Shown piece after piece: positions 6,052 through 9,805 of a stretch of DNA of 39,624 nt. The DNA comes from Clostridia bacterium. GTDB lineage: Bacteria; Bacillota; Clostridia; Christensenellales; Aristaeellaceae. Every line of letters begins with the position of its first letter. The first letter of the stretch is position 1. The translations under genes and the position numbers were made by a program. Location of the stretch: positions 1 to 39,624 of the forward strand of contig JAFUOR010000074.1 in NCBI GenBank assembly GCA_017481825.1, given 5' to 3'. Under the pieces are notes generated by a model, which saw only the letters and a program-made list of their open reading frames with translations, did not search any database and was not told where the DNA came from.

Positions 6052-7341
6052 ATGAATTTTGTCGAACTGGAGCGAGAAAAGATGGATTATGCCTGTTACC
6101 TGCGGAAGATCAAGGCCTCGCTGGCGCCCTCGACCGGCTGCACGGAACCTGCAGCCATCGCGCTGAATGCCGCGACGGCCCGGGAGCACGTCCGGGGCGA
6201 AATCGTGCGTGTCACAGCGCGGCTGGACGCCTATCTGTTCAAGAACACTATGGGCGTGGGCATCCCCGGCGCGGATGAGCGCGGCGTCAACCTGTGCGTG
6301 GCGCTGGGTATCACGGCAGGCGATGCGAAGGCGGGCATGAACGCCCTGCACACCGTCAAGCCGGAGCAGTTGGCGCAGGCCAAGGCGCTGCGGGCGCTGG
6401 TCACGGTAGAGATCGCCGAGGAAGCCAAAGGCCTGTATATCGAGACGGTCATTGAGACAGCGGAGGACAGCGTGCGCGTCATCACCAGTGACGAGCATGA
6501 TAACATCGCACGGGTGGAGCATGCACCCTTCGCTCCCTTTACCGTGGAGGACGGCGAGGAGGCTGCCGCAGCGCACGAGGGCTCCCTGGGCGAGTTCATC
6601 GAATTTGCCCGCGCGGTGCCGCTGGAGGAGCTGATCTTCCTGCGGGATGCGCTGAACATGAACCGCGTCGTGTATTACCGCGCAATGGAGGAAGGTCTGG
6701 CACATCATGTGCTGCCCAATATGCTCCTGCAGGACGGCTCCCTGTACGCCCAGGCCAAGAAAATGGCCGGCACCGCTTCCTATGCCCGCATGCACGGCAT
6801 CCCGCTGCCGGTGATGACCGCCACAGGCAGCGGCAATCAGGGCCTGACACTCTTTTTGACGGTGGATGCGGCGGCGCGGTGCTTTACCGTGTCCGAGGAG
6901 CGTCTGCTGCGGGCGCTGGCGCTGGCGTGTCTGGCAAACATCTACATCAAGAGCTTCATTGGCCCGTTGTCCAGCGTGTGCGCCTGCGGCGTGGCGTCGG
7001 GCCTGAGCGCCTCCATCGGCGTGGTATTCCTGATGGGCGGCGGCGAAAAGGAGATGCTCCAGGCCTCGCGTAATATCCTTGGCTCCGTCAGCGGCATGAT
7101 CTGCGACGGCGCGAAGGAGGGCTGTGCGTCCAAAGTGGCGCTGAGCGCAGGCCTTGCGGTAGAGGCAGCCTGCCTCGCCATGGAGGGCGGCGGCATCCAC
7201 GCCCAGGACGGCATCCTGGACGAGAGCTTCGACCGGCTTATCGCCCATCTGGGCGAGCTGGTCTGCGTGGGCATGGGCGGCACGAATTCGACGATCGTGC
7301 ACATCATGAAGGACGAGAAGATGCGTCGCCCCAACTGCTGA
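6052..7341 (+). CDS. cyuA: L-cysteine desulfidase / serine dehydratase-alpha family protein (CyuA/YhaM type)
   Basis: A 429-residue member of the UPF0597 family, whose characterised members are [4Fe-4S] L-cysteine desulfidases releasing pyruvate, ammonia and sulfide. The cluster-ligand cysteines seen in that family have counterparts: STGC30TEPA at the N-terminus, SVCACG in the central region, and MICDGAKEGCASK further on. The glycine-rich segments TATGSGNQG and FIGPLSS also match. The upstream start site is weak (GCAGGGAA), and an alternative ATG lies at 6082. It stands alone between the divergent flavoprotein operon and the aromatic operon. Cysteine detoxification or use is the likely role; substrate is inferred from family. 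Confidence 0.85.
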   Translation: MNFVELEREKMDYACYLRKIKASLAPSTGCTEPAAIALNAATAREHVRGEIVRVTARLDAYLFKNTMGVGIPGADERGVNLCVALGITAGDAKAGMNALHTVKPEQLAQAKALRALVTVEIAEEAKGLYIETVIETAEDSVRVITSDEHDNIARVEHAPFAPFTVEDGEEAAAAHEGSLGEFIEFARAVPLEELIFLRDALNMNRVVYYRAMEEGLAHHVLPNMLLQDGSLYAQAKKMAGTASYARMHGIPLPVMTATGSGNQGLTLFLTVDAAARCFTVSEERLLRALALACLANIYIKSFIGPLSSVCACGVASGLSASIGVVFLMGGGEKEMLQASRNILGSVSGMICDGAKEGCASKVALSAGLAVEAACLAMEGGGIHAQDGILDESFDRLIAHLGELVCVGMGGTNSTIVHIMKDEKMRRPNC

Positions 7342-7365
7342 ACAACGAAAGAACAATCCAAAGGC

Positions 7366-7395
7366 TTGACAGGCACGAGACACAGACGCTATAAT
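7366..7395 (+). promoter_or_regulatory. promoter of the aroF-aroB operon
   Basis: TTGACA (7366-7371), 18-base spacer, TATAAT (7390-7395); directly upstream of the leader peptide. Confidence 0.88.
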
Positions 7396-7419
7396 CAATG
7401 CCACAAGGAGGATGGACTC

Positions 7420-7491
7420 ATGCTGTACGCTTCTTACTTCGCGTTTACGTTCCCGGCCGCTTTTGCTGCCGGGCAGATTGACGTTGCGTGA
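7420..7491 (+). CDS. Tyr/Phe-rich leader peptide of aroF (attenuator)
   Basis: A 23-codon ORF with a perfect AAGGAGG (7405-7411) eight bases before its ATG. The peptide starts MLYASYFAFTFPAAF and ends at TGA 7489-7491. It holds two Tyr and four Phe in the first 15 residues, resembling the FAFFFTFP segment of the enterobacterial pheA leader. It lies between a consensus promoter and an intrinsic terminator, ahead of DAHP synthase, the committed step of aromatic amino acid synthesis. A hairpin CCCGGC(7452-7457)/GCCGGG(7468-7473) lies inside the reading frame, just after the third Phe codon. All of this fits ribosome-mediated transcription attenuation by charged tRNA-Phe/Tyr. Confidence 0.85.
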   Translation: MLYASYFAFTFPAAFAAGQIDVA

Positions 7492-7534
7492 AGTTAGCTG
7501 ATGGCATGCCCGTCCCTCGGAATGGGTCAATGAT

Positions 7535-7571
7535 GCGCGGAAGCTCCCTTTGCGGAACTTCCGCGCTTTTT
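7535..7571 (+). terminator. attenuator terminator upstream of aroF
   Basis: Nine-bp stem GCGCGGAAG (7535-7543) / CTTCCGCGC (7558-7566) followed by five T, 42 bases before the aroF ATG and after the leader peptide. A possible competing pairing is GCTTTTGC (7459-7466) with GCGGAAGC (7537-7544), eight pairs including two G-U; CGGGCA (7470-7475) can also pair with TGCCCG (7507-7512). The true antiterminator is not settled by inspection. Confidence 0.88.
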
Positions 7572-7613
7572 GTATCCTGAAGATTCATCCAGGTATGAAG
7601 GAGGAATATACCT

Positions 7614-8630
7614 ATGATTATCGTCATGAAACAGGGCGCAACCCGGCAGGAAATCGATTACGTAGCGGATATGATCACCGCCAAGGGCGGCATCACCGTC
7701 AACCCCATGTACGGCAGCGATCTGACCATTCTGGGCCTGATCGGCGATACCAGCCGCATCGACCCAGCGCAGCTGGAATCCTTCCGCTGTGTGGAGCGCA
7801 TCATGAAGGTCGCTGAGCCCTTCAAAAAGGCCAACCGCATGTTCCACCCCGGCGCGTCCGAGGTGAAGGTAGGCGATACGGTGGTCGGCGGCACGAAGCT
7901 GAGCGTCATGGCCGGCCCCTGCTCGGTGGAGAGCAACGAGCAGATCACCGAGGTGGCCAGGGCTGTCAAGGAGGCCGGTGCGACCATCCTGCGCGGCGGC
8001 GCCTTCAAGCCCCGCACCAGTCCCTATTCCTTCCAGGGCCTTGAATATCAGGGGCTGGATATGCTCTGCCATGCCCGCGAGTTGACGGGTCTGCCCATCG
8101 TGACCGAGCTGATGAGCCCCTATGACATCGACAAATTCGAGGACAAGGTGGACTGCATTCAGGTCGGCGCACGCAACATGCAGAACTTTGACCTGCTCAA
8201 GCGTCTGGGCAAGACCAGGAAGCCCATCCTGCTCAAGCGCGGCATGTCCGCCACCATCGAGGAGTGGCTCATGTCCGCCGAGTACATCATGGCTGGCGGC
8301 AATGAGAACATCATCCTGTGCGAGCGCGGCATTCGCACCTTCGAGACCTATACCCGTAACACCACTGATCTCTCCGCCATCTGCGCGGTAAAGAAGCTCA
8401 GCCATCTGCCGGTGATTGTCGATCCCAGCCACGCCACGGGCAAGTACTGGATGGTGCAGCCCCTTGCCCGCGCCGCCATCGCCGTAGGCGCAGACGGCCT
8501 GATGATCGAGGTGCACAACGATCCCGCCCACGCCCTGTGCGACGGCGCGCAGTCCATCAAGCCCGACGCCTTTGCCGAGGTCATGGCAGACATCAGGAAT
8601 ATCGCCCGCGCCGTTGGACGCGAAATTTAA
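7614..8630 (+). CDS. aroF: 3-deoxy-7-phosphoheptulonate (DAHP) synthase, type I-beta
   Basis: A 338-residue enzyme condensing phosphoenolpyruvate and erythrose 4-phosphate, the first step of the shikimate pathway. Residues 1-70 form the ferredoxin/ACT-like regulatory domain typical of AroF(I-beta) of Gram-positives and Thermotoga. The barrel begins near 90 with GPCSVES (C103 metal ligand), RGGAFKPRTSPY (127-138), LLKRG and IVDPSHATGK (metal histidine). AAGGAGG lies nine bases before the ATG. Expression appears to be controlled by the Tyr/Phe leader upstream, and activity possibly by aromatic amino acids through the N-terminal domain. aroB follows about 100 bases downstream. Confidence 0.96.
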   Translation: MIIVMKQGATRQEIDYVADMITAKGGITVNPMYGSDLTILGLIGDTSRIDPAQLESFRCVERIMKVAEPFKKANRMFHPGASEVKVGDTVVGGTKLSVMAGPCSVESNEQITEVARAVKEAGATILRGGAFKPRTSPYSFQGLEYQGLDMLCHARELTGLPIVTELMSPYDIDKFEDKVDCIQVGARNMQNFDLLKRLGKTRKPILLKRGMSATIEEWLMSAEYIMAGGNENIILCERGIRTFETYTRNTTDLSAICAVKKLSHLPVIVDPSHATGKYWMVQPLARAAIAVGADGLMIEVHNDPAHALCDGAQSIKPDAFAEVMADIRNIARAVGREI

Positions 8631-8648
8631 TTAGCAATTATGATTTAG

Positions 8649-8712
8649 GAATTAGGAATTTAGCGTGTGGGACAGCGTCTGTGCCAGTAGCTGCATTCAT
8701 CATTCCTAATTC
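8649..8712. repeat. short inverted repeat between aroF and aroB
   Basis: Perfect 11-base arms GAATTAGGAAT (8649-8659) and ATTCCTAATTC (8702-8712), preceded by a related partial unit ATTTAGGAAT. AT-rich arms unlike the GC-rich surroundings suggest a small MITE-like or REP-like insertion. It could also fold in the mRNA just upstream of the aroB ribosome site. Confidence 0.5.
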
Positions 8713-8731
8713 GTCTATCAGGAGGTGCTCC

Positions 8732-9805
8732 ATGCCCATGATCACCGTCCCTCTGGGACAAAGAACCTACCCCATCCACATCGGCAGCGGATTGCTGGAC
8801 TGTCTGGGCACCCATGTGCTGGAGATGCACGGCGAGATCGCCGTTGCCATCGTGACGGACGACCATGTGGCCCCGCTCTATCTTGACCGGGCGGTGAAGT
8901 CCCTTGAAAATGCAGGGCTGCGCGTGTGCTCCATCGTGCTGCCCCATGGCGAGCAGACCAAGTGCCTGGGGCGCCTGATGGAGCTGTACGACTTCCTGTG
9001 CGAGAGTCGCATCACCCGCAAGGACGCGGTGATCGCCCTGGGCGGCGGCGTCATCGGCGATCTGACCGGACTGGCGGCAGCGACGTATCTGCGCGGCGTG
9101 CACTTCATTCAGGTGCCGACGACTCTGCTGGCCCAGGTGGACTCTTCCGTGGGCGGCAAGGTGGCGGTGGATCTGCCCCAGGGCAAGAACCTGGTGGGCG
9201 CGTTCTATCAGCCGGACTTCGTCCTCTGTGACCCAGACACGCTGACAACTCTCTCCGACGCCTACTGGCGCGATGGCCTGGGCGAGGTGATCAAGTATGG
9301 CTGCATCGGCGATGCAGAGCTCTTTGCGCTCCTGGAAAGCTGCGCCCCCGGCGGACGCAGCACGCTGATGGCGCACATCGACGAGATCCTGCGCCACTGC
9401 ATTCAGGCCAAGGCTGACGTGGTGGCCCAGGACGAGCGCGACACGGGTCTGCGCATGACGCTGAACTTCGGCCATACCATCGCCCATGCGGTGGAGACCT
9501 GCCAGCATTACGAGGGTCTCCGCCACGGCGAAGCGGTCGCTTTGGGCATGCATGTCATGACCCGCCTGACGGAGGGCAAGGGCATGACGGCTCCCGGCAC
9601 GGCAGAACGCCTCGACGCCCTGCTCGCAGCGCTCCAAATGCCCATGACCCTCCCCGCAATTCCCGAAGACGAGCTGCTCAGTGCCATGGGCATGGACAAG
9701 AAGTCCGCCGGCAAGGCCCTGCGAGTCATCGGCATTGAGAAGATCGGTCAGTGCTATATTCACACGACGGATACATCCTTTTTCACCGGAATGACGCAGA
9801 TATAA
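8732..9805 (+). CDS. aroB: 3-dehydroquinate synthase
   Basis: A 357-residue NAD- and metal-dependent enzyme converting DAHP to 3-dehydroquinate, the second shikimate step. Typical segments are GEQTK (NAD site), LGGGVIGDLTG, PTTLLAQVDSSVGGK, LPQGKNLVGAF, and FGHTIAHAVE with LRHGEAVALGM, carrying the metal-binding histidines. The start at 8732 follows AGGAGG; an ATG two codons later is an alternative. No transcription stop is visible between aroF and aroB, so both are probably controlled by the same attenuator. The remaining shikimate genes are not in the window. Confidence 0.96.
   Translation: MPMITVPLGQRTYPIHIGSGLLDCLGTHVLEMHGEIAVAIVTDDHVAPLYLDRAVKSLENAGLRVCSIVLPHGEQTKCLGRLMELYDFLCESRITRKDAVIALGGGVIGDLTGLAAATYLRGVHFIQVPTTLLAQVDSSVGGKVAVDLPQGKNLVGAFYQPDFVLCDPDTLTTLSDAYWRDGLGEVIKYGCIGDAELFALLESCAPGGRSTLMAHIDEILRHCIQAKADVVAQDERDTGLRMTLNFGHTIAHAVETCQHYEGLRHGEAVALGMHVMTRLTEGKGMTAPGTAERLDALLAALQMPMTLPAIPEDELLSAMGMDKKSAGKALRVIGIEKIGQCYIHTTDTSFFTGMTQI

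Follow-up and report, generated by a model that had tools for sequence, protein, structure and literature searches.

A predicted phenylalanine-responsive leader-peptide attenuator upstream of the DAHP synthase gene aroF in a Clostridia genome, and aromatic leaders upstream of related genes

The region upstream of aroF in the window (i.e., the whole 39,624-nucleotide stretch of DNA analyzed, from a Clostridia bacterium) is very probably a ribosome-mediated transcription attenuator that controls aroF-aroB through the supply of phenylalanine. The sequence-only reading had listed a promoter, a 23-codon open reading frame (ORF) with a perfect Shine-Dalgarno (SD) site and two Tyr and four Phe codons, an internal GC hairpin, and a terminator. 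All of these parts are read directly in the sequence, and the Pfam domains agree with its assignment of the downstream genes to aroF (DAHP synthase) and aroB. The leader region upstream of aroF is thereby confirmed as real and consists of the following features.

7366..7395, + strand: promoter (TTGACA at 7366-7371, 18-nt spacer, TATAAT at 7390-7395; 12/12 consensus bases)
7405..7411, + strand: SD site of the leader peptide (AAGGAGG, 8 nt upstream of the ATG at 7420)
7420..7491, + strand: leader peptide ORF (23 codons, MLYASYFAFTFPAAFAAGQIDVA)
7438 (Phe7) and 7444 (Phe9), + strand: candidate control codons of the leader ORF, kept in 20/20 rows of alignment A2
7435..7450, + strand: strand 1 (Tyr6-Thr10 codons), the predicted partner of strand 2 if the ribosome is absent
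7452..7473, + strand: GC hairpin within the leader ORF (CCCGGC...GCCGGG), the apical part of the 1:2 stem
7484..7499, + strand: strand 2, overlapping the leader stop codon (TGA, 7489-7491)
7542..7554, + strand: strand 3, the inner 5' arm and loop of the terminator (AGCTCCCTTTGCG; CTTTGCG at 7548-7554)
7535..7571, + strand: intrinsic terminator (hairpin 7535-7566; T tract of five T, 7567-7571)
7614..8630, + strand: aroF, DAHP synthase with a ferredoxin-like domain (PF00793, PF18152; own SD site at 7598)
8732..9805, + strand: aroB, 3-dehydroquinate synthase (PF01761, PF24621)

The promoter is the sole sigma-70-like site that a promoter scan found within 7300-7700. The aromatic codons of the leader ORF are Tyr3, Tyr6, Phe7, Phe9, Phe11, and Phe15, and two segments of strand 2 are predicted to pair with strand 3 (CGTGAAG, 7487-7493; AGCT, 7496-7499). 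A gap of 42 nt separates the end of the leader region (7571) from aroF, and aroB is presumed to lie on the same transcript. Folding of 7396-7640 yielded -94.9 kcal/mol, compared with a mean of -75.4 kcal/mol for dinucleotide shuffles (z = -4.1; 0/200 as good). A simple hairpin scan, limited to loops of 3 to 8, chose a shorter hairpin (7551-7565) inside the terminator.

According to the proposed mechanism, transcription would start a few bases downstream of 7395, and a ribosome would load on the leader ORF. When charged tRNA-Phe is short, the ribosome would stall at Tyr6-Phe9 over strand 1, leaving strand 2 free to pair with strand 3 as soon as strand 3 emerges; the terminator would then form too late, and the polymerase would read into aroF. 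When Phe is ample, the ribosome would reach the stop codon inside strand 2 and cover that strand, so that the terminator would form. The terminator would form as well if the leader were not translated, with stem 1:2 holding strand 2. We infer these cellular events (i.e., translation of the leader ORF, stalling, termination, and read-through).

The alternative structures were examined in a model of the stalled ribosome in which the RNA was masked to 12 nt past the codon and the transcript ended at 7558. Once the leader codons were masked, mutually exclusive stems emerged, a favorable outcome for one of the checks proposed with the sequence-only reading. The ribosome-free leader folded into a long 1:2 stem with a separate terminator. 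With the ribosome at Tyr6 or Phe7, 12.9 base pairs were expected between strands 2 and 3, compared with 0 in the ribosome-free transcript. Pairing of 2:3 came later with the ribosome at Phe9 (1.4 pairs at 7556 and 11.6 at 7558) and was weak with the ribosome at Phe11 (4.3 expected pairs). Neither 1:2 nor 2:3 appeared in the third modeled state, with the ribosome at the stop codon, where zero 2:3 pairing follows directly from the mask, which covers strand 2. In the model, the 2:3 antiterminator thus excludes 1:2 and competes with 3:4. Folding of the full-length RNA favored the 3:4 terminator in every state, 2:3 winning only before strand 4 exists, and antitermination would therefore have to be kinetic.

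We compared leaders by their switch contrast (i.e., the stalled state versus the better of the other two states). It amounted to 11.4 base pairs in 18 Phe-type leaders, compared with 1.0 in shuffled leaders (p <= 0.1 in 17/18), and to 8.4 compared with 2.6 base pairs in 16 Tyr-type leaders, which belong to a second DAHP synthase gene described below (p <= 0.1 in 7/16); since each leader had 30 shuffles, p cannot be less than 0.03. One leader (L015) lacked a switch contrast (1.1 compared with 0.6). The shuffle comparison reused, without a cutoff, the measure behind a strict cutoff for switch-like behavior, which 6/18 Phe-type and 8/16 Tyr-type leaders passed.

Of 150 genomes searched at the protein level, 108 (own genome included) had a DAHP synthase match. 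The orthologues in the genus are preceded by the same leader, whose core is TACTTYRCGTTTACG ... CGTACCGTRAAG. The covariance model R1, built for this leader, matched 20 of 250 family genomes, the own genome included, at one place each. Within the genus it matched 16 of 18 genomes, with one copy each, and missed G008 and G016; in G008 (locus L019), aroF is present without a leader. By their coordinates, the 17 strongest R1 matches are orthologous aroF sites. Three weak matches were located in other genera (G225:C38:13771, G238:C467:28893, and G279:C210:1976). A promoter-like pair of hexamers of the form TTGACN-15 to 20 nt-TATMAT stands upstream of 19/20 leaders in alignment A2, the exception being L003; two A2 members (L037 and L044) are outside the switch tests and the AGWACAAT count given below.

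Conservation of the short ORF and its aromatic codons in relatives, a check proposed with the sequence-only reading, was borne out for the ORF and its Phe codons. Phe7 and Phe9 are invariant in all 20 rows of alignment A2 (window included). Tyr6 is kept in 12/20 rows and replaced by Phe, Ile, Thr, Ser, Arg, or Ala in the other 8, and Phe11 is variable. The 16 Phe-type leaders of the genus contain 63 Phe and 26 Tyr in 348 residues, with more Phe than Tyr in 14 leaders, more Tyr than Phe in 1, and no Trp.

The window's own genome has two DAHP synthase matches. The second gene (G000:C144:4171; loci L002 and L130), which by eye sits behind a sigma-factor-like gene, carries its own Tyr-rich leader, MFSRTNGKYYYALYMDGRA (KYYYALY), and terminator. 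We examined 20 paralogue regions (L002 and 19 other fetched regions, one fetched stretch being L130 of the own genome). An alignable Tyr leader was present in 16 of them (14/17 in the genus, plus L120 and L121), and L131 has a different Tyr-rich leader. The expected leader was absent before the DAHP synthase gene in L112, L115, and L129 of the same genus; the upstream 260 nt of L112 and L115 look like the last part of the sigma-factor-like gene. With GCAGGGCG at the stop codon, CGCCCTGC, and GCAGGG(C/T)G plus a T run, the Tyr leader follows, to judge from its sequence elements, the textbook attenuator design. The 16 Tyr-type leaders contain 13 Phe and 69 Tyr in 308 residues, with more Tyr than Phe in 16/16 and no Trp. 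Their 2:3 helix has standard pairs in 126/128 cells with scarcely any variation, and these leaders therefore give no covariation evidence.

The lack of Trp codons in both leader types fits the lack of a match to the TrpE-type chorismate-binding domain in 11/11 genus relatives searched (metagenome-assembled genomes [MAGs] of 68-95% completeness). The own genome (G000) does have such a match, in a trpE gene behind a T-box match at G000:C51:34853-36600; this difference may reflect a gain in the own genome, a loss in its relatives, or MAG contamination (5.4%).

The same attenuator might sense Tyr as much as Phe and thus act as a general aromatic sensor. Tyr stands at codons 3 and 6 of the leader, Tyr6 persists in a majority of the A2 rows (12/20), and the 2:3 signal is strongest with the ribosome at Tyr6 or Phe7. 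However, Tyr6 is replaced in 8/20 rows where Phe7 and Phe9 never are, and the sister isozyme carries a Tyr leader of its own, which makes such a sensor rather unlikely in our estimation. The aromatic-leader attenuator of the sequence-only reading therefore stands, supported by the exclusive stems and the conserved ORF, in a refined form: the leader on aroF would respond mainly to Phe, and a separate leader for Tyr lies on the second DAHP synthase gene.

Some sequences around these genes were noted in passing. Just upstream of the -35 hexamer, the window carries AGAACAAT (7350-7357). The pattern AGWACAAT (either orientation, one R position allowed), which was picked after the sequences were seen, occurs just upstream of the promoter in 11/18 Phe-type and 10/16 Tyr-type leaders, compared with shuffle expectations of 0.2 and 0.1, respectively. 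It is a candidate operator common to the two isozymes, which may thus also be under the control of a DNA-binding regulator. Several relatives (L005-L008 and L022) have TGTATAC(A) between -35 and -10. The aroF-aroB gap contains an inverted repeat (GGAATTAGGAAT / ATTCCTAATTCG; 8648-8713; chance expectation, 0.07 matches) that may be a small mobile repeat. Similar AATTCCGAATTC runs precede the leader in L012 and L013.

Strands 2 and 3 covary across lineages. Within the genus, the terminator loop, CTTTRCGG, is less variable than the arms, and this loop matches CCGTRAAG at the leader stop. Paired changes are found in other lineages: CCGTTGAAG/CTTTAACGG (L009), CAAAGGGA/TCCCTTTG (L044), CTAATGAGT/ACTCATTAG (L039), GTTGAG/CTCAAC (L046), CTGCTGAGTT/AGCTCAGCAG (L050), and CTGAGTG/CGCTCAG (L081). 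The stop codon lies within strand 2 in the window; in leaders of the L009 type, strand 2 starts 5 nt after the stop. In a contiguous-helix test of 55 leaders, own partners scored 15.85, compared with 12.71 for shuffled and 12.69 for swapped partners (p < 0.05 in 17/55); the window's own 2:3 helix (7 bp) is not significant alone (p = 0.36). A permutation test of 58 divergent representatives gave 15.08 for own and 12.52 (sd, 0.33) for permuted partners, with 0/20,000 permutations as good. These representatives, which leave out L002 and L223, were defined by a gap-penalized alignment score below 0.5 of the longer peptide and not by plain identity. Both tests kept some leaders as the script had chosen them (e.g., L003 with an over-long ORF and L018 with the wrong hairpin), and because script-chosen ORFs stayed in, L001 and L003 are both among the 58.

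A looser RNAduplex test of 2:3 gave -16.5 kcal/mol, compared with -15.0 kcal/mol for swapped partners (p < 0.05 in 2/20 rows), and did not separate real from shuffled partners in the other 18 of its 20 rows. Stem 1:2 shows almost no covariation, and RNAalifold on alignment A4 returned 11 pairs, one of them with a two-sided change. Because strand 3 consists largely of the terminator's loop and inner arm, we infer a geometry in which the antiterminator would capture that loop and not the whole 5' arm.

To survey aromatic leaders before aroF elsewhere, we scored the 350 nt upstream of each gene for an SD-preceded ORF of 8 to 50 codons with at least 5 Phe, Tyr, or Trp in 15 residues. Such ORFs occurred in 25/31 regions from whole-genome loci (window and L002 included), 30/72 distinct public contigs, 30/39 further family/order regions, and 13/19 further paralogue regions, compared with 1/244 control long ORFs. 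With a cutoff of at least 6, the counts in the same order were 13, 25, 29, and 3, compared with 0/244 controls; with at least 4, they were 27, 30, 30, and 15, compared with 8/244 controls and with shuffle expectations of 2.5/31 and 9.0/72 for the first two sets. The controls came from a mechanical search for ORFs in the window and the 72 public-contig loci and may include ORFs that are not genes. Eight duplicate contigs and L223 (a repeat of L018) were dropped. The further family/order regions were 40 that we chose from the DAHP synthase match list; beyond these, coverage of that list comprised 30 places included with the loci and the paralogue regions. The leader frequencies are not unbiased, because the quality of the protein match guided the choice of loci and 39 regions were author-chosen. 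A hairpin with a T tract (-7 kcal/mol or better) followed 82/84 leaders, compared with 46/244 control regions of 110 nt. The claim that a Phe/Tyr leader would be unusual on a Firmicute aroF is thus not borne out: aromatic leaders precede many of the aroF genes examined, compared with the single control ORF, and the aroF leader is therefore not unusual for Clostridia.

Contigs with such leaders include those of Clostridium cibarium, C. chromiireducens, C. weizhouense, C. ganghwense, and Anaerotruncus massiliensis. Leader-bearing MAGs are labeled Gracilibacteraceae, Peptococcaceae, Acholeplasmataceae, Synergistaceae, Fusobacteriaceae, and Ruminococcus, labels that can be wrong for MAGs. A Trp codon is present in 17/30 public-contig leaders. 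Clostridium-type leaders (L039, L041, L042, L045, L057, L064, and L068) are about 42-48 codons long and have in common a core resembling FWGFYFSAGYLF and a terminator with CTCAT; on these sequence features, they look like one old leader family.

The ORF might instead encode a functional small protein, with the terminator as the unconditional end of a short transcript. The peptide is indeed kept within the genus. However, leaders of other lineages vary in length and sequence and have mainly their aromatic runs in common, and the pairing between leader end and terminator covaries. Moreover, sigma-70-like sites, the sole type scanned for, are absent between the leader and aroF, and aroF would therefore depend on read-through. 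We rejected the small protein, considered very unlikely, since mainly the aromatic runs are shared, and retain the attenuator.

A further alternative is that a T-box, a TRAP-type element, or a small-molecule riboswitch controls aroF. The T-box model (RF00230) matched the genome at 12 places (E <= 7e-10), one of them over the curated Rfam cutoff, including sites before trpE and trpS. The T-box matches precede trpE (PF00425) and ORFs resembling trpS, metG, proS, serS, valS, leuS, hisS, thrS, ileS, and an aminotransferase; apart from trpE, the ORFs were named by eye from their translations, and L143 was left unnamed. Downstream of trpS on the same strand lie aroA-like and aroC-like ORFs and pheA (PF00800). 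However, the 4227 Rfam families gave no match in the window at gathering scores and none at E <= 1 in the aroF loci L001 and L002, and RF00230 had no match at aroF, its 12 matches elsewhere serving as a positive control. A T-box or other Rfam riboswitch at aroF was rejected for want of an Rfam match, TRAP-type control was set aside in a search that covered Rfam families, and we regard control of these kinds as extremely improbable. With T-box matches at trpE and the other genes and a leader peptide at aroF, the two kinds of element therefore occur together in the genome.

Beyond the window, there is a reasonable chance, somewhat better than even, that much of Clostridia ordinarily controls DAHP synthase by leader-peptide attenuation, with a loop-capturing antiterminator and with codon content tuned to the isozyme and the pathways present (i.e., separate Phe and Tyr leaders for the two isozymes of a genus mostly without TrpE, and mixed Phe/Tyr/Trp leaders elsewhere). 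In E. coli, DAHP synthase is divided among Tyr-, Phe-, and Trp-controlled isozymes, and such leaders, if the proposal is true, would be the RNA counterpart of this split. For many uncultured gut Clostridia, the present finding predicts the means by which they ration entry to aromatic amino acid synthesis. It also suggests that sequence reveals the amino acid to which each isozyme responds, and it shows T-boxes and leader peptides side by side in one lineage.

Enterobacterial pheA and pheST have Phe leaders, and the leader described here shares with them a Phe-rich peptide and an overlapping antiterminator and terminator. It differs in its gene and phylum, in the lack of an Rfam family match at E <= 1, and in strand 3, which consists here of the terminator inner arm and loop. 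Like the T-box leaders (RF00230) of this genome, it would answer to uncharged tRNA before a terminator, but T-boxes do so without a leader peptide and have no match at aroF. In Firmicutes, Rli60 of the Listeria ilv-leu operon is a bench-tested ribosome-mediated attenuator with a 13-residue leader, differing in that it concerns branched-chain amino acids (available text of PMC5864092). His-leader attenuators, likewise Firmicutes leader attenuators but of histidine operons, were predicted in three Firmicutes lineages without other control of the pathway (PMC9413887, in the portion available). Leader attenuators of Actinobacteria are covered by PMC1262725, as far as its accessible text goes.

Attenuation has also been proposed for DAHP synthase in Proteobacteria, the difference from our case being the phylum: an older hypothesis concerns E. 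coli aroF (as cited in the available parts of PMC8632094 and PMC2659441), and in Shewanella, a predicted RNA motif lies upstream of aroF (PMC2659441, same parts), this second paper naming Tyr-tRNA as the signal. The mechanism itself is classical, and for Acholeplasma an aroF leader has previously been proposed. Neither aroF leaders in Clostridia, with the breadth seen here, nor a pairing of Phe and Tyr isozymes turned up in the literature searched, in which few subscription papers were covered. The Acholeplasma case is the uORFC-13-1 motif upstream of aroF, for which its authors proposed attenuation; it comprises 24 sequences from one genus and environmental DNA, and the E. coli aroF 5' untranslated region is said to differ from it (available text of PMC8632094). 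Like the present leader, it has a short upstream ORF with at least one Phe codon and a possible promoter and ribosome-binding site, directly upstream of a terminator stem and aroF (same text of PMC8632094). Compared with that published description, the leaders reported here differ in occurring in many Clostridia, in having about 17-48 codons, in the 1-2-3-4 scheme, and in forming separate Phe and Tyr leaders on two isozymes.
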